This document shows, piece by piece, positions 2,990 to 13,784 of a stretch of DNA of 64,000 bases. Positions within the stretch are counted from its first letter, which is position 1, and every line of letters begins with the position of its first letter. Made by a program: the position numbers and the translations under genes. Under the pieces are notes generated by a model. That model was not told the DNA's origin. It made no database searches and saw nothing but the letters and a program-made list of their open reading frames with translations. Source of the DNA: Phycisphaerae bacterium (GTDB taxonomy: Bacteria; Planctomycetota; Phycisphaerae; UBA1845; UTPLA1); contig DATEMU010000004.1 in assembly GCA_035275405.1 (NCBI GenBank), positions 124,001 through 188,000 on the forward strand, in the 5' to 3' direction.

Positions 2990-3035
2990 TCCGTCTTTGC
3001 AGCCCCCGTTGTTCTTCAATGGGAAGGGGTTCGTC

Positions 3036-4097
3036 ATGACCGGGCCGCAGGTCGGTGAGCGCATCAGCGAATACGTCCTCGACGCGCTCGTCGGGGCGGG
3101 CAGCTTCGGCCAAGTCTGGAAGGCGCACCACCACGTCTGGAAGGACGAAGTTGTCGCCATAAAAGTCCCGACCGACTCCCAGTACGTTCGCAATCTTCAG
3201 AAGGAAGCCTGCACGATTCATGGCTTGCGCCATCCAAACATCGTCCGCGCCATCGGACTGGACCCCTACGCCGAGACGCCCTACCTCGTTATGGAATTCG
3301 TCGATGGCCAGTCGCTGGCCGGGCTGATCGCCGCCCATCGGCAAGGCTTGCCCATGCGATCGATCGAACAAATTCTGCGCGGCGTGCTCAGCGCCTTGGA
3401 ATGCGCCCATGCCGGCGGGGTGATCCACCGCGATATCAAACCCGCGAACATCCTCGTGGCCGGCGCCGGAAAGCGGCCCGTCGATCAAATCCGCGCCGAG
3501 GATGTAAAGGTCACGGATTTCGGCCTTGGCCGCGCCGGAGAACTGACCGCAAATAGTATTCTCCAATCCGGCAGCCTGCTCGCCGAGGACGGCAAGAGCA
3601 TTTCCGGCACGCTCGCTTACATGGCTCCTGAGCAGCGCGACGGCGGACAGACCGATGCCCGAAGCGACCTTTACTCCGTCGGCATCGTGCTGTTCGAGAT
3701 GATCTGCGGCGAGCGGCCCAGCGGAAGCGACCTGCCGTCCTCGCTGCGGGAGGGCCTTCCCGCGTGGGTCGATACGGTCTACACCCGGCTGCACACTCGC
3801 CATGATCGGCGCTTCGCGAGCGCCGCCGACGTACTCCGGGCGATGCATGTCACGGCATCACCCGTGTCGGTGTCGGGTCGTGTTGAGATGCCGCCCTTGC
3901 CCGGGCCGCGGGCGTTCCGCGCCTCTGGCTGTCCCGGGTGCGGTTACGCCGGAGAGCCCGACGATAACTTCTGCATCATGTGCGGCGAGCAAATAGCGAG
4001 CCGCGTTCGCCGCTGTCCGACCTGCGGCGGCTATCCCGGTTCGGAGGATCTCTATTGCATTTTGTGCGGCGCCGTACTGTCGGCGTCCCTGGGGTGA
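3036..4097 (+). CDS. Ser/Thr protein kinase with C-terminal double zinc ribbon
   Basis: A 353-residue Hanks-type kinase with all the standard catalytic landmarks: glycine loop GAGSFGQVW (20-28), VAIK with Lys43, HRDIKPANIL (131-140), DFG (161-163) and APE (197-199). It therefore looks catalytically active. After the kinase fold come two Cys4 zinc ribbons (Cys299/302/313/316 and Cys327/330/341/344). There is no membrane segment, so the kinase should be cytoplasmic, perhaps tethered by the ribbons. The start is the ATG at 3036 behind GGGAAGGGG; the frame is open further upstream. It opens a tight run of genes (six bases to the next) with ESCRT-III-like, PspC and Vps4-like proteins, so those are candidate substrates. 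That link is inferred from position. Confidence 0.9.
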   Translation: MTGPQVGERISEYVLDALVGAGSFGQVWKAHHHVWKDEVVAIKVPTDSQYVRNLQKEACTIHGLRHPNIVRAIGLDPYAETPYLVMEFVDGQSLAGLIAAHRQGLPMRSIEQILRGVLSALECAHAGGVIHRDIKPANILVAGAGKRPVDQIRAEDVKVTDFGLGRAGELTANSILQSGSLLAEDGKSISGTLAYMAPEQRDGGQTDARSDLYSVGIVLFEMICGERPSGSDLPSSLREGLPAWVDTVYTRLHTRHDRRFASAADVLRAMHVTASPVSVSGRVEMPPLPGPRAFRASGCPGCGYAGEPDDNFCIMCGEQIASRVRRCPTCGGYPGSEDLYCILCGAVLSASLG

Positions 4098-4103
4098 TGC
4101 GCG

Positions 4104-4370
4104 ATGTTCGTTTGGACGACTGGAATGTCGCTCTTTCCGCTGATCTTCTTCGTGGTGATCTTCGCCGTCGTGGTGTATTCCTTCTTCAGCGCCGTCCGCG
4201 GACAAGGTCTGGAGATCGAGGAAAACTTGGGCGGCGGTGCGAATCGGTCGAGGTCGCCGCGGCGTTTCGCTGCCGAGTGGGAGTGCGAACGGTCGACCTG
4301 CCGCGCGGCCAACCCCGGCCACGCTCGGTTCTGCCGAATGTGCGGTCGCCGGCGCGAAGCTCCCCGGTAG
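4104..4370 (+). CDS. One-TM protein with cytoplasmic zinc finger
   Basis: An 88-residue protein with one strong membrane helix (about 9-30, rich in Phe/Val/Ile) followed by a basic linker and a Cys4 zinc finger (CERSTC ... CRMC) near the C-terminus. The finger resembles the ribbons on the kinase just upstream, which hints at a shared partner or binding surface. It starts six bases after the kinase stop and ends 36 bases before the winged-helix/ESCRT-III-like gene. It might serve as a membrane recruiter for the soluble proteins around it; this is inference. Family not recognised. Confidence 0.75.
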   Translation: MFVWTTGMSLFPLIFFVVIFAVVVYSFFSAVRGQGLEIEENLGGGANRSRSPRRFAAEWECERSTCRAANPGHARFCRMCGRRREAPR

Positions 4371-4406: not shown

Positions 4407-5816
4407 ATGAGCACAGCGGCGGATCATGCCTGCGAAATCGAGTCTGCCTATCTGGCCGGGGTTCAGGCCAATCTGAAGGCGGCCGGTTCGCGCCTTATCC
4501 GCGGCACGACCTTCAAGCACGAGGAACACGACCGCGGCGAGAATGTCCGCGCCGCCATGATCGAGCGCCGCATCTATGACAAGTCGCGCTACGCGAAGAT
4601 GCCGCAGGGGCGCGGCTTCACCGTTCGCGGTTACGAACGCAGGTTCTTCTTCGGCCGGCGACTGCGAAGCGTCACGGCGGCGACCGTGATTGCCCCACCG
4701 GAGCCACTGCTCTCGTCGGATGAACCGCCCCCGCCGGTCACTGTTGGCCAGCTCAACGAGCATGTCCGCAGCCTCGTCCTGGACCACCGAACGCCGCACG
4801 TGATCGGCGTGTGCAGCCCCAGCGGGTTCGATCCCAGCGTGTGGGATTCTTTGCCGGAGTCCCCGAACGTCTCGCTCGTGTTGATCAGCCCCCGCGAAGG
4901 CGGCGGCTGGACAACGGGCGGCATCGGCCGGCAACTGGATGACCGGCTCCTGGCCTTGTTTGACCCGGAAGACGGCCGCCAGAAAATAGAACGCGTCCGC
5001 CGGGAAATACGAGATCGGAGCACCGACCTCTTGACCGGCGGGTTATCGGCCGGTGGACTGGCGGCTCGCTTGCAGCTCCCTCCGAAGGTCGTGCAGACCG
5101 CGTTTGAGGTGGAGTCCCGCGCCGATCCCGAGCTTCGCCTGGCAAAGCGATCGGGTGATTTCCTGCTGTATCGTGGAGCGCCTGCTATGGTAGGCGAGGA
5201 GGATTCGATGTCGTTGGCCCAATGGATCAAGAGCCTGTTTTTCAGCGCGGGTGAGGAGGGGAAGAAGATCGACGTCCTCGCCGAACGCCGGGCCTCGCTC
5301 GCCGACCGCCTGAACCGCATGTACGAGGACATCGGCAAGCTGGAAAAGAAGGAATCCGTGCTGATCGACGAGGGCAAGGCGGCGACGTCCAACGTGGTCA
5401 AACGGCGCGTGGCCTCGCAAATCAGCCACCTGCGAAAGGATATTTCCCGCTGCAACACCAGCGCGGCGATGCTGAGCAAGCAGATCAATATCATCAGCAC
5501 GCACATCCACAATCTGGAACTCGCACAGACCGGCAGCGTGGCCCAGCTTCCCAGCGGCGACGAACTGACCGAGGCGGCGGTCAATGCCGAGGAGATTCTG
5601 GAACAACTCGCGGCGAGTGATGAACTGGTCAGCGGAATGGAAGTCGGCATGGCCCAGTCGGCAATCTCGTCGGATGAGGCGGCGATCTTGAAGGAGCTGG
5701 AAGCATCGGTCGCGGAAAAATCGCCCGAAGGTGCGCCCTCCGAAGCAGCCCCGACACAAGTCGCCGAGGCGAAGTCCAAGTCGCGGCAGCAGCGAGACAA
5801 AGCGCAGGCGGAGTAG
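4407..5816 (+). CDS. Winged-helix + ESCRT-III-like fusion protein
   Basis: A 469-residue protein with two halves. Residues 1-200 are an unrecognised domain with an alpha/beta stretch around 130-190. Residues about 206-256 (LSAGGLAARLQLPPKVVQ, ending in a GDFLLYR wing) look like a winged helix. From Met268 the protein changes to MSLAQWIKSLFFS, an amphipathic start, then long charged helices (284-375) containing ISHLRKDISR and ISTHIHNLELAQTG, and an acidic tail with DEAAILKELEAS (423-434), which resembles an MIT-interacting motif. The basic helical core plus acidic tail is the ESCRT-III/Snf7 pattern. Known relatives that join winged helices to an ESCRT-III domain include CHMP7. The assignment rests on pattern, not on a profile search; a generic coiled-coil protein is the alternative. 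Confidence 0.6.
   Translation: MSTAADHACEIESAYLAGVQANLKAAGSRLIRGTTFKHEEHDRGENVRAAMIERRIYDKSRYAKMPQGRGFTVRGYERRFFFGRRLRSVTAATVIAPPEPLLSSDEPPPPVTVGQLNEHVRSLVLDHRTPHVIGVCSPSGFDPSVWDSLPESPNVSLVLISPREGGGWTTGGIGRQLDDRLLALFDPEDGRQKIERVRREIRDRSTDLLTGGLSAGGLAARLQLPPKVVQTAFEVESRADPELRLAKRSGDFLLYRGAPAMVGEEDSMSLAQWIKSLFFSAGEEGKKIDVLAERRASLADRLNRMYEDIGKLEKKESVLIDEGKAATSNVVKRRVASQISHLRKDISRCNTSAAMLSKQINIISTHIHNLELAQTGSVAQLPSGDELTEAAVNAEEILEQLAASDELVSGMEVGMAQSAISSDEAAILKELEASVAEKSPEGAPSEAAPTQVAEAKSKSRQQRDKAQAE
5194..5210 (+). promoter_or_regulatory. Internal ribosome binding site and ATG inside the winged-helix/ESCRT-III-like gene
   Basis: GCGAGGAGGATTCGATG occurs in frame at the domain boundary of the fusion gene: a strong Shine-Dalgarno (AGGAGGA) about five bases before the ATG at 5208. 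Initiation here would give a free 202-residue ESCRT-III-like protein (5208-5816), exactly as long as the two ESCRT-III-like proteins that follow. This suggests that one gene makes both a long and a short form. Strong Shine-Dalgarno matches do occur by chance in GC-rich coding sequence, so the site is a candidate. Confidence 0.45.
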
Positions 5817-5819
5817 TGA

Positions 5820-6428
5820 ATGGCCCTCTTTGACTGGTTGACCAAGAAAGGCAAACCCCTCTCCGCCATGACGCGGCAGGAGCTGCGCCGTCAGGAATTG
5901 CTCCTCGCCCGCGATCGCGAGCAGCTTCTGAAACGGATCACCGATGCCGCCGCAAAGAAACAAGACATCTTCGAGCGCGGTCGCCAGGAGAAATCGCCGG
6001 AGCTGCGCCGAATCCTTGCGCAGGAGTTCGATCTCAAGACGACCGAGCAGATGATGACAGGGCGGCAGCTCAACATCCGCAGCAAAGAGTTCCTGACGGT
6101 CTCGCGGATGCGGATGCTTCGCGAGAACGCCGAACGGGCCAAGGCCCGCGGGTCCAAGCTCGGCCTCATCAGCGAGCGGGATATCATCGTCCTCGAGAAG
6201 ATGATCGAGAACGACGCCATTACGGCGGACATGTACCAGGAGCGGCTGGATTCGATGCTTCAGGTCGGCGCCGACGACGGCGAGTCGATGCTCACGCCGG
6301 GCTCCAAGCAGGTGCTCGACGTGTGGGAGCAGATGGACACCGGACTGATGAAGGACGCGAATCAGGCGTTTGACGAGGCGGATCGCCGTGTGCGGGAGCG
6401 GCATCAGGCGCAGGCGGAGGGCGCGTAA
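5820..6428 (+). CDS. ESCRT-III-like helical protein (second copy)
   Basis: A 202-residue, almost entirely helical protein that begins MALFDWLTKKGK, similar to the short amphipathic N-terminus of many ESCRT-III proteins. Residues 16-120 are long, strongly basic helices with heptad character. From about 128 the protein turns acidic (EKMIENDAITADMY, later DVWEQMDTGLMKDA). It has no membrane helix and no Cys. It starts three bases after the stop of the fusion gene, with GGAG overlapping that stop, so the two are probably translated together. Sequence similarity to known Snf7 families is weak by eye. Assignment depends on architecture, the matching length of its neighbours, and the adjacent Vps4-like ATPase. 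Confidence 0.6.
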   Translation: MALFDWLTKKGKPLSAMTRQELRRQELLLARDREQLLKRITDAAAKKQDIFERGRQEKSPELRRILAQEFDLKTTEQMMTGRQLNIRSKEFLTVSRMRMLRENAERAKARGSKLGLISERDIIVLEKMIENDAITADMYQERLDSMLQVGADDGESMLTPGSKQVLDVWEQMDTGLMKDANQAFDEADRRVRERHQAQAEGA

Positions 6429-6773: not shown

Positions 6774-7382
6774 ATGAGCTTGTTCAAATCCGCCGAAGAG
6801 CGCCGCATCGAGCGCGACATCAAAATCCGCCAGGGCATCCGCCGCATCGAGAAATCGATCAGCGAGCAGAAGAAGTTCACCGACGACTTCGTCCGCAACG
6901 CCCGGCGGGCCAAGGAGATTGGCGACAACTCGCAGTACGTCTTCATCCGCAATTCCCTCAAGAAGACGGCGACCGTGCGGAAGATGCTGGAGCGGCAGCT
7001 TCTGGCGGTCAAGAACGCTCTCATCATCAAGCGGCAGGCGGAGGCCTCGTCGGATTTCGCGACCGCGATGGGCACGATGGCCTCGGAGATCAGCCGAATG
7101 TTCGGCGAGACCGACCTCGCTCGGACGCAGCTCGACTGGGAAAAGGCCATGGCCCAGAGCCAGAGCATGGAGGAGCGGATGACGATGTTCCTGGAGACAG
7201 TCGAGGACATTGCGGCGAGCGACACTGCGAATGTCCCCGCGGAGGTCGTGACCGATCAGGAGATCGACGCGCTGATCGAGGCAGAAGGCGAGGCGGAACA
7301 CGCGAAGGACATGGACGAACTGGACGCGCTGCGGGCGGAACTGAACGAAGTTAAGAACGCGGGGCAGAAGGAGACGAAGTAG
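6774..7382 (+). CDS. ESCRT-III-like protein (third copy; closest to the CHMP pattern)
   Basis: A 202-residue protein that best matches the Snf7/CHMP plan by eye. It begins MSLFKSAEERRIERDI, has a basic helical hairpin (residues 12-90: EKSISEQKKF ... QLLAVKNALIIKRQ), then FATAMGTMASEISRMFGETD (95-114) and a strongly acidic C-terminal part (134-190) with EVVTDQEIDALIEAEGEAE and a last helix DELDALRAELNEVK (181-194). That last helix resembles an MIM1 motif, the short helix that ESCRT-III proteins use to bind MIT domains. GGAGGA stands before the ATG. Its neighbour, one small gene downstream, is an MIT-like AAA ATPase, which fits a filament/disassembly pair. PspA-type proteins are the alternative, but they lack the acidic MIM-like tail. 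Confidence 0.7.
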   Translation: MSLFKSAEERRIERDIKIRQGIRRIEKSISEQKKFTDDFVRNARRAKEIGDNSQYVFIRNSLKKTATVRKMLERQLLAVKNALIIKRQAEASSDFATAMGTMASEISRMFGETDLARTQLDWEKAMAQSQSMEERMTMFLETVEDIAASDTANVPAEVVTDQEIDALIEAEGEAEHAKDMDELDALRAELNEVKNAGQKETK

Positions 7383-7397
7383 CTCTTGCTGTGATCG

Positions 7398-7832
7398 ATG
7401 GCTTTGCACTTCAACATTACGGGCATTCTTGTCGCCGGGCCACCAATGGCCCTCGGATACGTCATTGCAAAAAAATGCGGCGTCGAGGATTACGAGACAT
7501 TAGGAATGGTCATTGGAGGCCCGTTAACGGTCGGAGTCGACGCAATTTGGCGGCGTGTCTACGAGATCGATTTGTTTGAGCCGATTCGGGGTCCATCTAT
7601 TTGTTGGCTTCCTGTTTGGCTAATTGGCGCTACATGGGCCGCATTGGGCTTGGGGCGATTCCTGGGAATGTCGAAATCGGGTGAGATTGCCGTATTGATT
7701 TGTGCCGGCTTGGTAGCACTGCAGTGTTGGTACTTCGGGATAAATCGCTGGCGAAATGATCGTCGAGTAGCAAAATTGGCCCATGCCATGGACAACGGCG
7801 TAATCGACCCGAGTTCTGGGGCGGCGGAATAG
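7398..7832 (+). CDS. Small membrane protein of unknown function
   Basis: A 144-residue protein with a short N-terminal hydrophobic stretch (about 6-23) and two stronger membrane helices (about 68-88 and 95-113) followed by a basic tail. Family not recognised. Base composition is visibly poorer in GC than the genes on either side, so it may be a later insertion into the operon. It lies 15 bases after the third ESCRT-III-like gene and 15 before the ATPase gene, in the same direction, with only a weak ribosome binding site. A role in the ESCRT-like system is possible from position alone. Confidence 0.65.
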   Translation: MALHFNITGILVAGPPMALGYVIAKKCGVEDYETLGMVIGGPLTVGVDAIWRRVYEIDLFEPIRGPSICWLPVWLIGATWAALGLGRFLGMSKSGEIAVLICAGLVALQCWYFGINRWRNDRRVAKLAHAMDNGVIDPSSGAAE

Positions 7833-7847
7833 GCCCGCACTACGACC

Positions 7848-8969
7848 ATGAGCGTTTCCTACCCCACCTTCGAACGCCTCAAAGAACGCGGGCTCGCGGC
7901 CTATCAGGCTGGGAACTTCGCGGAGGCCAAGCCGTTTCTAATGCAGGCCGCCGACGCGATGATCAAAATCGCCGCCGAGACGGGCGATGCCGCGCGGCGG
8001 GCGCGGCGGAAGGCGATGGCCGCCGAACTCATCGAATTCGCCAAGCAGTGCGACGGCAAGGCGGCACACCGGCGGCAGGAGCGGCGGCGGGCGGCGAGCG
8101 GCGAAGGTGACGAGGCCGGGGCCGACGCGCAGGACTGGATCGTCCGCGACAAGCCGACCGTCAAGTTCGACGACATCGCCGGTCTCGACGACGTCAAGCA
8201 CGAGATCCGCCTCAAGATGATCTACCCCTTCGCGCACCCGGAACTCGCGGCGAAGTACCGGATCGCGACCGGCGGCGGCCTATTGCTTTACGGCCCGCCC
8301 GGCACGGGCAAGACGATGATCGCCAAGGCCGTGGCCTGCGAGATCGACGCGACAATGTTCGTCGTCTCGCCCGCGCAGGTCATGTCCAAGTGGGTCGGCG
8401 AGGCCGAGCAGAACGTCCGCAAGCTCTTCGAGGCAGCCAAGGCCGAGCCGCGCTCGATTATTTTCATCGACGAGATCGAGGCGATGGTGCCCAGCCGGCG
8501 GGATTCCTCCAGCAGCGTCATGACCCGCGTCGTGCCGCAGATTCTTCAAGAGCTGGAGGGCTTCGACCGCTCCTCGGCGTCGAAGCCGCTGCTCTTCGTG
8601 GGGGCGACGAACGAGCCGTGGGCCCTCGACAGCGCAGTCATGCGGCCGGGACGGTTCGACGCGAAGGTTTACGTGCCGTTGCCGGACGAGCCCGCCCGCC
8701 ACCGCTTACTGGAGATTTATCTGGGCAGCCGCCCGCTCGCCGATGACGTGGATTTTGCGGAACTTGTGGCGAAGCTGGAGGGCTACAGCGGCGCGGACAT
8801 CAAGGCCCTCGCCGAACGCGCGGCTACGATCCCGTTCATGGGGGCCGTCGGCGGCGAAACGGCGCGGCCGATCGCGATGGCGGACATTGTGATGGCGCTG
8901 GCGGAACTGACGCCGTCCGTGAAGAAAAAGGACCTGTTGCGTTTTGAACAGTTCCGGGATGCGAACTAA
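7848..8969 (+). CDS. Vps4-like AAA ATPase with N-terminal MIT-like domain
   Basis: A 373-residue protein. Residues 6-68 form three helices (FERLKERGLAAYQAGNFAEA and on) that fit an MIT domain. A linker then leads to one AAA module: FDDIAGLDDVK (107-117), Walker A GPPGTGKT (149-156), pore loop MSKWVGEAE (179-187), Walker B IIFIDEIEA (204-212), sensor GATN (252-255) and arginine finger RPGRF (266-270). The C-terminus (SVKKKDLLRFEQF) matches the last helix of the Vps4/katanin/spastin clade. One AAA module rather than two, plus MIT, sets it apart from Cdc48 and FtsH. Vps4 disassembles ESCRT-III filaments, and three ESCRT-III-like proteins with MIM-like tails are encoded just upstream. A TPR-like reading of the N-terminus is the main alternative. 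Confidence 0.8.
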   Translation: MSVSYPTFERLKERGLAAYQAGNFAEAKPFLMQAADAMIKIAAETGDAARRARRKAMAAELIEFAKQCDGKAAHRRQERRRAASGEGDEAGADAQDWIVRDKPTVKFDDIAGLDDVKHEIRLKMIYPFAHPELAAKYRIATGGGLLLYGPPGTGKTMIAKAVACEIDATMFVVSPAQVMSKWVGEAEQNVRKLFEAAKAEPRSIIFIDEIEAMVPSRRDSSSSVMTRVVPQILQELEGFDRSSASKPLLFVGATNEPWALDSAVMRPGRFDAKVYVPLPDEPARHRLLEIYLGSRPLADDVDFAELVAKLEGYSGADIKALAERAATIPFMGAVGGETARPIAMADIVMALAELTPSVKKKDLLRFEQFRDAN

Positions 8970-9066: not shown

Positions 9067-9086
9067 TTTCTGGGGTGGATGCAACC

Positions 9087-10841
9087 ATGATCTCCGGTGC
9101 GTTCAACATCGACCATTTCATGACGGACATGCAAACTGTCGCGTGCGTCGTCCGGCCGCAGGAGGTTTTTTCAATCCTCACGCGGCGCGTAACCGTTCCG
9201 CCGGAGTGCGTCGCCCTGGTCTGGGGCGAGTCGTCCTCGCCGGGCTTCGTCGCGTCCGGGCGCGAGATTGAAGCCGCGGACTGCCGCAAGCTGCTCTTCG
9301 TCCGCACGACCCCTTTCATGCTCAACTATGAACTCGGGGCCCTCACTTCGCAGGATAACTTCGCCATCCGTGTCAGTGTCGGTCTGTCCGTTTGTGCGGG
9401 CAACGACCGCCTAGACATGGTCGCCTTCCAGAAGAACCTGATGGCCGGGATCGAAACCCTGACGGCCGACCGCCTGCGACATTTCTGCGAGCCGCTCGTA
9501 CGCCGCACCGTCGAGAGGTTCGTCAAGCAGCGGCCCGCGGCGGACCTGCTCTCCACGGACGCCGCCGGCGCCTTCGACGATGGCCTCGCCGAGGAGTTTC
9601 AGTCGCTGGCCTTTGAGTCCGGGCTTTCACTGGCATCGGCCGCACGATTCGCCGCCCACTCGACGGATTATGTCGAGACGCAGTCGCTGCGCAAGGCGGC
9701 TACCACCCGTCAAGAACGTCTGGAGCAGCAAAAACAGCAGCGCGAGCGCGACCGGCAGTCGCAGGTCGAGCACTTGGCCCACCTCTCGTCAACACTGGAG
9801 CAGCTCGGCGCTCTCGCGGCCAAGTCGCCGGGGACCGCGGTCGTCGATCTCATCAAGACGTTTTCCCCCGCCGAGCGCGGTGGGCTGTACCAGGCCCTCC
9901 TATCCCGCGGCAGCGCTGCAACGCAGACCAGCGCGGTACTCATTGTGGCCGGCGACGAGCTGATTTCGCTCGATCCCCAAGCGCCTGATCAGCCGCTTCA
10001 ACGGCAACCTCTTGCACCCTCGCTCGGGCCACTTCGGTCGGTTCGAGTCTGCAACGATGGGACTCGACTCGTCGGAGCGCGCACGGGGGTCCACGTGCTG
10101 AAAGAGGGCAGCCAGGATGTCGAGTCCCTCGCGTTTGCACCCTCGCGCGAGCTGCGCGGTGGCGTCAATGCCGCGACGTTGGCCGGAGATCATCTGTTCG
10201 CGACGCATTCAGAGGTCGGCCTCATCCGCTGGAAGCTCGGCGAACCGCGACAAGTCGATATGCCGCTGGCGGACCGGCTGGCGGTCTGCAAGTCCGTTCG
10301 CGACGTGCAGACGGACGCGACGAGACGGATTTGGCTGGCTGCCGACCGCGAGGTGCTCGCTCTTGCTCCGGAATCGTGCGAAGGACTGATGTCGCTGACG
10401 GCCCCTGCAAACGTCACCGCCTTGCTCGTCGCGGAGGAGACGATTATTGCCGGTCTGGCCGACGGGCGGATCGCCCGCTGGCTCTTCGGGGCCTTTGATA
10501 CGGCGGAGACCATTCGGCCCGCGTGCGGCCGGGCGGTCGAATCGCTCGCGTGGCTACCGGGCGGCGGGGCCCCGCGCGTCGTCGTAGGAGACCGTCAGCC
10601 GCACCTGGAAATGCTCGTCCTCGGCGACGCCTTCAGCATCGAATACCGTTGCGGCCAGCCGATCCGCTGGGGCTACGCGGCGGCGGATTGGATCGTCGGT
10701 GTCAACGACCGCCGCGACCAGCTCATCCTCTGGCGACCCGACATGCCGCAGGAGCCGGAGCGAGTCGTGAACATAGGGCAACTTTGCGGGCATTCGATTC
10801 AGGATGTGGCCCTGATGGCGGCGACTACCGCCTTAGCTTAA
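9087..10841 (+). CDS. SPFH-like / coiled-coil / beta-propeller protein
   Basis: A 584-residue protein from the ATG at 9087 (GTG at 9075 adds four residues). Residues about 15-195 alternate strands and helices, with FAIRVSVGLSVCAGN and helices such as RLRHFCEPLVRRTVERFV, which resembles an SPFH (band 7) domain. Residues about 199-240 are a charged coiled coil (RQERLEQQKQQRERDRQ). From about 280 the protein is a series of short hydrophobic strands with repeated VxxxxDGTRLVGARTG-like blades, consistent with a WD40/PQQ-like propeller. No signal peptide or membrane helix. SPFH proteins scaffold membrane domains and propellers bind partners, so it would fit a recruiting factor for the ESCRT-like operon, though the repeat at 8971-9066 separates it from the ATPase. 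Domain calls are tentative. Confidence 0.5.
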   Translation: MISGAFNIDHFMTDMQTVACVVRPQEVFSILTRRVTVPPECVALVWGESSSPGFVASGREIEAADCRKLLFVRTTPFMLNYELGALTSQDNFAIRVSVGLSVCAGNDRLDMVAFQKNLMAGIETLTADRLRHFCEPLVRRTVERFVKQRPAADLLSTDAAGAFDDGLAEEFQSLAFESGLSLASAARFAAHSTDYVETQSLRKAATTRQERLEQQKQQRERDRQSQVEHLAHLSSTLEQLGALAAKSPGTAVVDLIKTFSPAERGGLYQALLSRGSAATQTSAVLIVAGDELISLDPQAPDQPLQRQPLAPSLGPLRSVRVCNDGTRLVGARTGVHVLKEGSQDVESLAFAPSRELRGGVNAATLAGDHLFATHSEVGLIRWKLGEPRQVDMPLADRLAVCKSVRDVQTDATRRIWLAADREVLALAPESCEGLMSLTAPANVTALLVAEETIIAGLADGRIARWLFGAFDTAETIRPACGRAVESLAWLPGGGAPRVVVGDRQPHLEMLVLGDAFSIEYRCGQPIRWGYAAADWIVGVNDRRDQLILWRPDMPQEPERVVNIGQLCGHSIQDVALMAATTALA

Positions 10842-13301: not shown

Positions 13302-13784
13302 TTACTCCCGCGATTCCAGCATCAGTTCTTCGGGCGAACAAATGACCGGCGAGATCAATCGAAGCCGCTGGTTTAGGGTTTCGATGTGCTTCCTCTTGCT
13401 GGCATTGGCTAGATGAGCATAGTTCCACGTCAACAGATAGTCCACTTCGTAGACCGACGCGAAAGCGATGTGGAAAGCATCGCGGGCATCGCGCCGAGGC
13501 ATCGCAAAGTTGGCCATATAGAAGTCGGCGGCATCGATGACGGAGTCGCTGATATCTAGTGATGCAAACTGTTTGACGAGTTCGAGCCGCCGGGTCGCTC
13601 GAAGCGAATCCCCTTGCGCGAGTTCATCCAAAACATACTGAGAAATGCGCACTTCGAATCGCCCCAACTCCTCATCCCACCAACGACGAATAATCAAGTG
13701 GCGCGCACGGATGATGGGGTCATCGCTTGCCGGTTCCAGCCAGTAGCTCGGAACGGAAGAATCCAAATATACCGTGGGCTTCAT
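13302..13784 (-). CDS. PIN-domain protein, VapC-like toxin
   Basis: A 160-residue PIN-fold protein, predicted RNase of a type II toxin-antitoxin pair. It begins MKPTVYLDSSVPSYW, the first acidic residue of the PIN site, has VLDELAQGD in the middle (second acidic residue) and DARDAFHIAFASVYEVDYLLTWN near the end, the standard third/fourth acidic motif. All metal-binding acids seem present, so it should be active. RRWWDEELGRFEVRISQYVL matches a PIN subfamily often paired with short (D)PxVEEVR proteins, as here. Composition is poorer in GC than core genes nearby, consistent with a mobile module. Confidence 0.85.
   Translation of the reverse strand: MKPTVYLDSSVPSYWLEPASDDPIIRARHLIIRRWWDEELGRFEVRISQYVLDELAQGDSLRATRRLELVKQFASLDISDSVIDAADFYMANFAMPRRDARDAFHIAFASVYEVDYLLTWNYAHLANASKRKHIETLNQRLRLISPVICSPEELMLESRE

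Follow-up and report, generated by a model that had tools for sequence, protein, structure and literature searches.

Reviews have confined the pairing of ESCRT-III with a Vps4-like ATPase to archaea and eukaryotes, and a 2023 review stated that bacteria have no clear Vps4 homologue and that bacterial PspA normally occurs without a Vps4 partner (PMC7615534). Ravi et al. 2024 reported VPS4-like AAA proteins in several bacterial lineages, for example ACB74714.1 (PMC11237479), and SPFH genes have been described at the loci of both bacterial PspA and archaeal ESCRT systems (PMC10936438). Here we analyzed a stretch of 64,000 nucleotides from a Phycisphaerae bacterium (contig DATEMU010000004.1, positions 124,001 to 188,000; hereafter the window), in which the gene of a VPS4-like ATPase (7848..8969, +) is preceded on the same strand by three genes for ESCRT-III homologues, E3A (4407..5816, +), E3B (5820..6428, +) and E3C (6774..7382, +). 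Judging from the sequence, it is highly probable that these genes encode a bacterial ESCRT-III/Vps4-type membrane-remodelling system, and in a literature search that left out preprints and closed journals we found no paper pairing true ESCRT-III with Vps4 in bacteria. A first-pass annotation of the same DNA had drawn attention to the ATPase; the three upstream homologues, which are our main finding, were absent from it.

The Cdv system of Thermoproteota (CdvB, ESCRT-III; CdvC, Vps4) resembles this locus in having ESCRT-III gene(s) directly upstream of a single-AAA ATPase with an MIT (here MIT-like) and a Vps4_C region and in lacking the eukaryotic beta-domain insert; moreover, CdvC was the best NCBIfam match of our ATPase and CdvB the first match of the E3C model. 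It differs in that here no CdvA-like gene was identified, the host is bacterial, a kinase gene and an SPFH/beta-propeller gene are linked, the ATPase falls outside the CdvC clade and carries RPGRFD, and there are three E3 paralogues, of which E3A has a CHMP7-like architecture (CHMP7 is a fusion of winged helix and ESCRT-III). The Asgard and eukaryotic ESCRT-III/Vps4 systems are alike in that the best profile matches of both E3C and the MIT-like domain of the ATPase were Asgard proteins, but no ubiquitin or ESCRT-I/II genes were recognised near the window's cluster, and its ATPase is placed as sister to the Vps4 clade, not within it. Bacterial PspA/Vipp1 proteins belong to the same superfamily and, like this locus, have SPFH partners, whereas they show no detectable profile similarity to the E3 proteins, and here three paralogues stand beside a dedicated ATPase. 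The systems of Ravi et al. share the bacterial VPS4-like AAA protein, but in them an unrelated TPR/6TM gene takes the place of snf7, while in the window the ESCRT-III genes adjoin the ATPase.

E3C (202 residues) is the most conserved gene of the cluster. In profile-profile alignment (hhalign) it matched Asgard ESCRT-III with a probability of 95.9% (E = 6.1e-9, score 62.6), compared with scores of 15.6 +/- 1.9 for block shuffles (null maximum 21); the positive control, Asgard against TACK ESCRT-III, reached 96.9% (E = 1.5e-10), and reversed and block-shuffled controls scored about 12-30. E3A (469 residues) has an N-terminal region, a winged-helix-like segment (matches to helix-turn-helix families were scattered and weak) and an ESCRT-III-like C-terminal domain (about residues 266-440), which matched archaeal ESCRT-III at 90.1% (E = 1.6e-6, 168 columns, score 48.6 against <=23 for shuffles). 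E3B (202 residues) matched the ESCRT-III-like half of E3A at 96.4% (E = 1.3e-9, 158 columns). Broader sampling was required for E3C, as hhalign with low-diversity order-level alignments failed; Pfam and NCBIfam scans of the window's own E3 proteins gave nothing useful, and the E3C profile had no match among PDB sequences. By these computations E3A, E3B and E3C are homologous to ESCRT-III.

Independent searches gave the same family for E3C. Snf7 was the Pfam family matched by the largest number of E3C orthologues (10 of 35, best 0.0011), and an orthologue elsewhere in the phylum (locus L150) reached 3.1e-5 over nearly the full model, against 7.4e-7 for the archaeal CdvB control. In an unbiased search with Snf7, run in six frames over 119 whole genomes of the phylum, 18 matches had E<=0.01, and the top six, ten in all, were E3C genes that had already been located independently; none of the matches in this search exceeded the curated cut-off, and the archaeal control, S. 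acidocaldarius, fell below it too. The AlphaFold2 model of E3C has helices at residues 7-49, 52-91, 95-110, 115-128, 132-149 and 161-201, that is, the ESCRT-III order of a long alpha1-alpha2 hairpin, shorter helices and a C-terminal helix, and Foldseek placed S. islandicus CdvB at ranks 1-2 (probability 1.00 and 0.99), with CdvB2, Ist1, Vps24, CHMPs and Vipp1 also among the top 35. The C-terminal helix (residues 161-201; 7254..7376, +) carries a conserved LRAEL..LK motif, in which L186, R187 and E189 are invariant among 35 orthologues, and is a candidate MIT-binding tail.

The ATPase gene is an intact open reading frame with an ATG start, encoding 373 residues of Vps4-like architecture. We read directly in it the Walker A motif GPPGTGKT, the Walker B motif IIFIDE, the pore loop SKWVGE, the sensor GATNEPW and the C-terminal motif PSVKKKDLLRFEQF, and Pfam assigned AAA (6e-40; residues 145-278; 8280..8681, +), AAA_lid_3 (9e-9) and Vps4_C (2.5e-5, 24.6 bits against a cut-off of 21.3; residues 340-370; 8865..8957, +), in agreement with the single AAA module, pore loop, GATN sensor and C-terminal helix seen in the first-pass annotation. 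The best NCBIfam model was cell_div_CdvC, that of archaeal CdvC (1.1e-67, residues 18-369), below its 650-bit cut-off. The orthologues in 27 relatives (56-82% identity) have the identical domain set, Vps4_C being present in 28/28 proteins, and therefore the observation is far beyond chance. The Vps4_C cut-off was also passed by Cdc48-sized proteins in Asgard genomes, so this domain is by itself a poor marker and no proof of Vps4; in the window, a single AAA module with Vps4_C occurs together with a genomic association with ESCRT-III, as in Vps4/CdvC proteins.

The AlphaFold2 model of the ATPase (predicted local distance difference test, pLDDT, 85.8) begins with three helices at residues 5-20, 24-44 and 48-83 (mean pLDDT per ten residues mostly >90); residues 84-94 form a disordered linker to the one AAA module, and a helix at residues 360-372 lies at the C-terminus. 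The three-helix region (residues 5-83; 7860..8096, +) matched the Asgard Vps4 MIT profile with a probability of 95.5% (E = 1.5e-8), helix 3 being covered. In VIA-align, Metallosphaera Vps4 came out best (Z 30.2, 37% identity, 2.6 A over 267 residues), with katanin, spastin, yeast Vps4 and p97 on a par, and in Foldseek p97 ranked first and Metallosphaera Vps4 47th; therefore, structure alone cannot separate Vps4 from p97 D2.

The gene order KIN (kinase) - E3A - E3B - E3C - VPS4 - SPFH recurs repeatedly among 40 loci of the order, and in 31 of the 40 the ATPase lies in the same 8-17 kb stretch and on the same strand as the ESCRT-III genes. Of 61 genomes, the own one and those of relatives, 49 have E3C, with 61-89% identity in the relatives save for one short extra match, and an even sample of the phylum gave matches in 56 of 294 genomes (two of these matches short and weak); among the matches listed in the latter sample, all but the one in the own genome fall outside the own class. 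The cluster recurs with variations elsewhere in Planctomycetota. One Planctomycetota metagenome-assembled genome (MAG; L208) has the full cluster, its ATPase module and the one at a relative's locus being identical, and a Phycisphaerae MAG (L199) has the ATPase and the SPFH gene. In a Chloroflexi MAG, an ATPase gene and an E3C homologue share one contig (L228:240-842 and L228:4371-5504) and a second E3C gene lies elsewhere in the genome, while 250 other genomes of its phylum had none.

For the phylogeny of the AAA module we used 87 AAA domains and 283 columns, rooted on FtsH and PAN, with long branches left out. The query sequences for human VPS4B, katanin and spastin were checked against PDB chains, and a Sulfolobus CdvC query served solely for retrieving PDB sequences. 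In the tree, the window ATPase fell together with its bacterial kin, among them the ATPase of the Chloroflexi MAG, in a clade of their own (support 100/100), which was sister to the clade of Asgard, thermoproteotal and eukaryotic Vps4, katanin and spastin (99/96; joint clade 99/89), and Cdc48 D1 and D2 together formed one clade (98/92), so that the best tree puts the ATPase outside both FtsH and Cdc48 D1/D2. An earlier quick tree that included long branches had left the ATPase unresolved between Cdc48 and Vps4, whereas the careful tree without them resolved its placement. At the site of RRF.KR in the meiotic clade, the bacterial clade also keeps RPGRFD, in the style of Cdc48. The ATPase is best placed as a separate bacterial clade sister to Vps4/katanin/spastin. 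The first-pass annotation was supported in so far as this is a bacterial MIT-like-AAA-Vps4_C protein, either an old paralogue or a transfer, that bears on the origin of ESCRT, but its assignment to the Vps4/katanin/spastin (meiotic) clade was not, since the module does not lie inside that clade in the 87-domain tree. Two related proteins were seen in passing: other lineages of the phylum have a second MIT-like AAA ATPase directly upstream of E3C (L130, L139, L141, L153 and more loci; for example L141:6097-7332), and a cyanobacterial Calothrix gene (L233:796-2160) combines TPR-like repeats with a long-branched AAA module akin to the bacterial Vps4-like clade.

Whether the system descended from deep ancestry or was transferred from archaea is, in our estimate, an even question, and transfer is compatible with an ESCRT-III/Vps4-type system. 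The spread is patchy (about 56/294 genomes in the phylum and 1/251 in that of the Chloroflexi MAG), transfer of VPS4-like AAA proteins from archaea to bacteria was reported by Ravi et al. 2024 (PMC11237479), and the approximately unbiased (AU) test did not reject a grouping of the ATPase with thermoproteotal Vps4 (p = 0.20). Moreover, the module of the second MIT-like AAA protein nests within the archaeo-eukaryotic Vps4 clade (99/96). The clade of the window ATPase, by contrast, is nested in no sampled archaeal group and is sister to all of them, which speaks against transfer.

FtsZ was found in none of the 61 genomes compared, whereas 13 of 14 control genomes were positive in the same search, and it exceeded the cut-off in none of the 294 genomes of the phylum. 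Ten genomes of the phylum have divergent FtsZ-family proteins below the cut-off (best E = 3e-47); none of the ten has an E3C match. PspA, though common in bacteria, was missing from every one of the own family's 17 genomes; of the 41 genomes searched, 7 had it. The system might mainly be the cell-division machine of FtsZ-less bacteria, a contractile system like Cdv, as suggested by the absence of FtsZ in the relatives, by the retention of the cluster across the order and by its likeness to the cdvB-cdvC linkage. We consider this unlikely, though worth serious attention: most FtsZ-less planctomycetes outside the order are without E3C, so that another solution for division is needed there and a universal division role is unlikely, and a counterpart of CdvA was not identified. 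With FtsZ missing from almost the entire phylum, no correlation between its absence and the cluster can be drawn. Membrane repair or vesicle formation would be the most likely role, and division an unlikely but possible one, given that FtsZ is missing from every relative and PspA from the own family.

Several observations weigh against an ESCRT-III/Vps4-type system. Roughly four in five genomes of the wider phylum have no E3C, and therefore the cluster is no universal replacement for FtsZ. Individual E3C proteins stay below the Snf7 curated cut-off (best 24.1 bits against 27.3), which is an annotation rule and no biological definition; E3B has no direct match to archaeal ESCRT-III and is tied to it solely via E3A. 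Confidence in the E3C model is moderate (pLDDT 71.5, predicted template-modelling score 0.51), its Foldseek E-values are weak (0.03), and in VIA-align BAR domains scored as high as ESCRT-III, so the fold match is support and not proof. The AU test did not reject a grouping of the ATPase with Cdc48 (p = 0.32). None of 22 bacterial ATPase N-termini reached the Pfam MIT model and 15 of the 22 weakly matched TPR_2; the archaeal MIT controls matched Pfam MIT in 8/8 cases, and most of them weakly match TPR as well. The three-helix fold that the first-pass annotation had anticipated was thus recovered in the model, while its identity as MIT is favoured but not proven, given the profile match and the three helices on one side and the unreached MIT model and weak TPR_2 matches on the other, and we therefore named the domain MIT-like. 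Further, many genomes have additional genes inserted among the members of the cluster; the linkage survives these insertions, which argues for selection.

Some of these points would also suit a protein-quality or scaffold system, in which a Cdc48-derived AAA disaggregase has as its neighbours helical proteins that are generic coiled-coil or BAR-like scaffolds: in VIA-align, BAR and bMERB domains scored level with ESCRT-III (Z up to 9.9), and the AU test leaves the Cdc48 grouping standing. We nevertheless hold it to be very improbable, because the profile matches to archaeal ESCRT-III lie far above the shuffled and reversed controls, the unbiased Snf7 search recovered E3C, CdvB came first in Foldseek, which also uses sequence, and the ATPase bears an MIT-like N-terminus together with Vps4_C. 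A kinship of the ESCRT-III genes with PspA/Vipp1, which form the known bacterial branch of ESCRT-III and would here have an AAA protein as partner, is a reading for which literature can be cited (PMC8281802) but which is scarcely credible, since PF04012 (PspA_IM30) matches none of E3A, E3B and E3C and their profile probability against six planctomycete PspA proteins is <1%, compared with 96% for E3C against Asgard ESCRT-III, a comparison limited by the control, in which archaeal ESCRT-III reached just 2-5% against PspA itself.

The remaining genes of the cluster flank or separate the E3 and ATPase genes. KIN (2997..4097, +), a Ser/Thr protein kinase with a C-terminal double zinc ribbon (Pfam Pkinase 1.3e-40, DZR 1.1e-5), opens the conserved cluster and accompanies the ESCRT-III genes in most relatives. 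It is followed by ZR (4104..4370, +; 88 residues), a partly conserved zinc-ribbon protein (Zn_Ribbon_1 0.0063) with an N-terminus that looks hydrophobic by eye, which was found across the own family and is missing in many members of the order. Between E3C and the ATPase lies TM (7398..7832, +; 144 residues), a hydrophobic, probably membrane protein with no Pfam match and no tblastn match in the loci of 40 relatives. SPFH (9075..10841, +; 588 residues) has an SPFH/Band-7-like N-terminus and a probable beta-propeller C-terminus, as 8 of 24 orthologues matched Band_7 (best 9e-5) and beta-propeller families were matched weakly; it lies directly 3' of the ATPase in most relatives, the gap usually being <160 bases, and recalls the SPFH partners of archaeal ESCRT and bacterial PspA loci. 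Pairs of nucleotidyltransferase/HEPN type are repeatedly inserted between the E3 and VPS4 genes (L086, L071, L088), and at 13302-13784 (-) the window has a PIN-domain-like open reading frame, recognised by eye, possibly the toxin of a toxin-antitoxin pair.

Taking the Cdv and ESCRT systems as models, we infer how an ESCRT-III/Vps4-type system of this kind might work. E3A, with its added winged-helix-like region, E3B and E3C would form composite filaments on the cytoplasmic face of some membrane, E3A and the SPFH/beta-propeller protein may anchor or position these filaments, and the linked Ser/Thr kinase may control the system. The MIT-like domain of the ATPase would bind the C-terminal helices of the ESCRT-III subunits, and a hexameric AAA ring would thread the subunits past the SKWVGE pore loop and pull them out, an extraction that could drive constriction, fission or recycling of the filaments.

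An entire bacterial order, and genomes beyond it, conserve a pairing of ESCRT-III with a Vps4-like ATPase, which would provide an independent lineage for rooting the evolution of ESCRT. Since Planctomycetota are without FtsZ and their division is unexplained (PMC12283558), the cluster offers a concrete set of candidate genes for bacterial ESCRT-driven membrane scission. We regard it as distinctly improbable that the cluster is an ESCRT-III/Vps4-like division or fission machine in FtsZ-less bacteria and that its ATPase branch is at the same time sister to all archaeal and eukaryotic Vps4; if both were true, Vps4-driven ESCRT-III would predate the archaeal lineage from which it is now held to stem, or be independent of that lineage.
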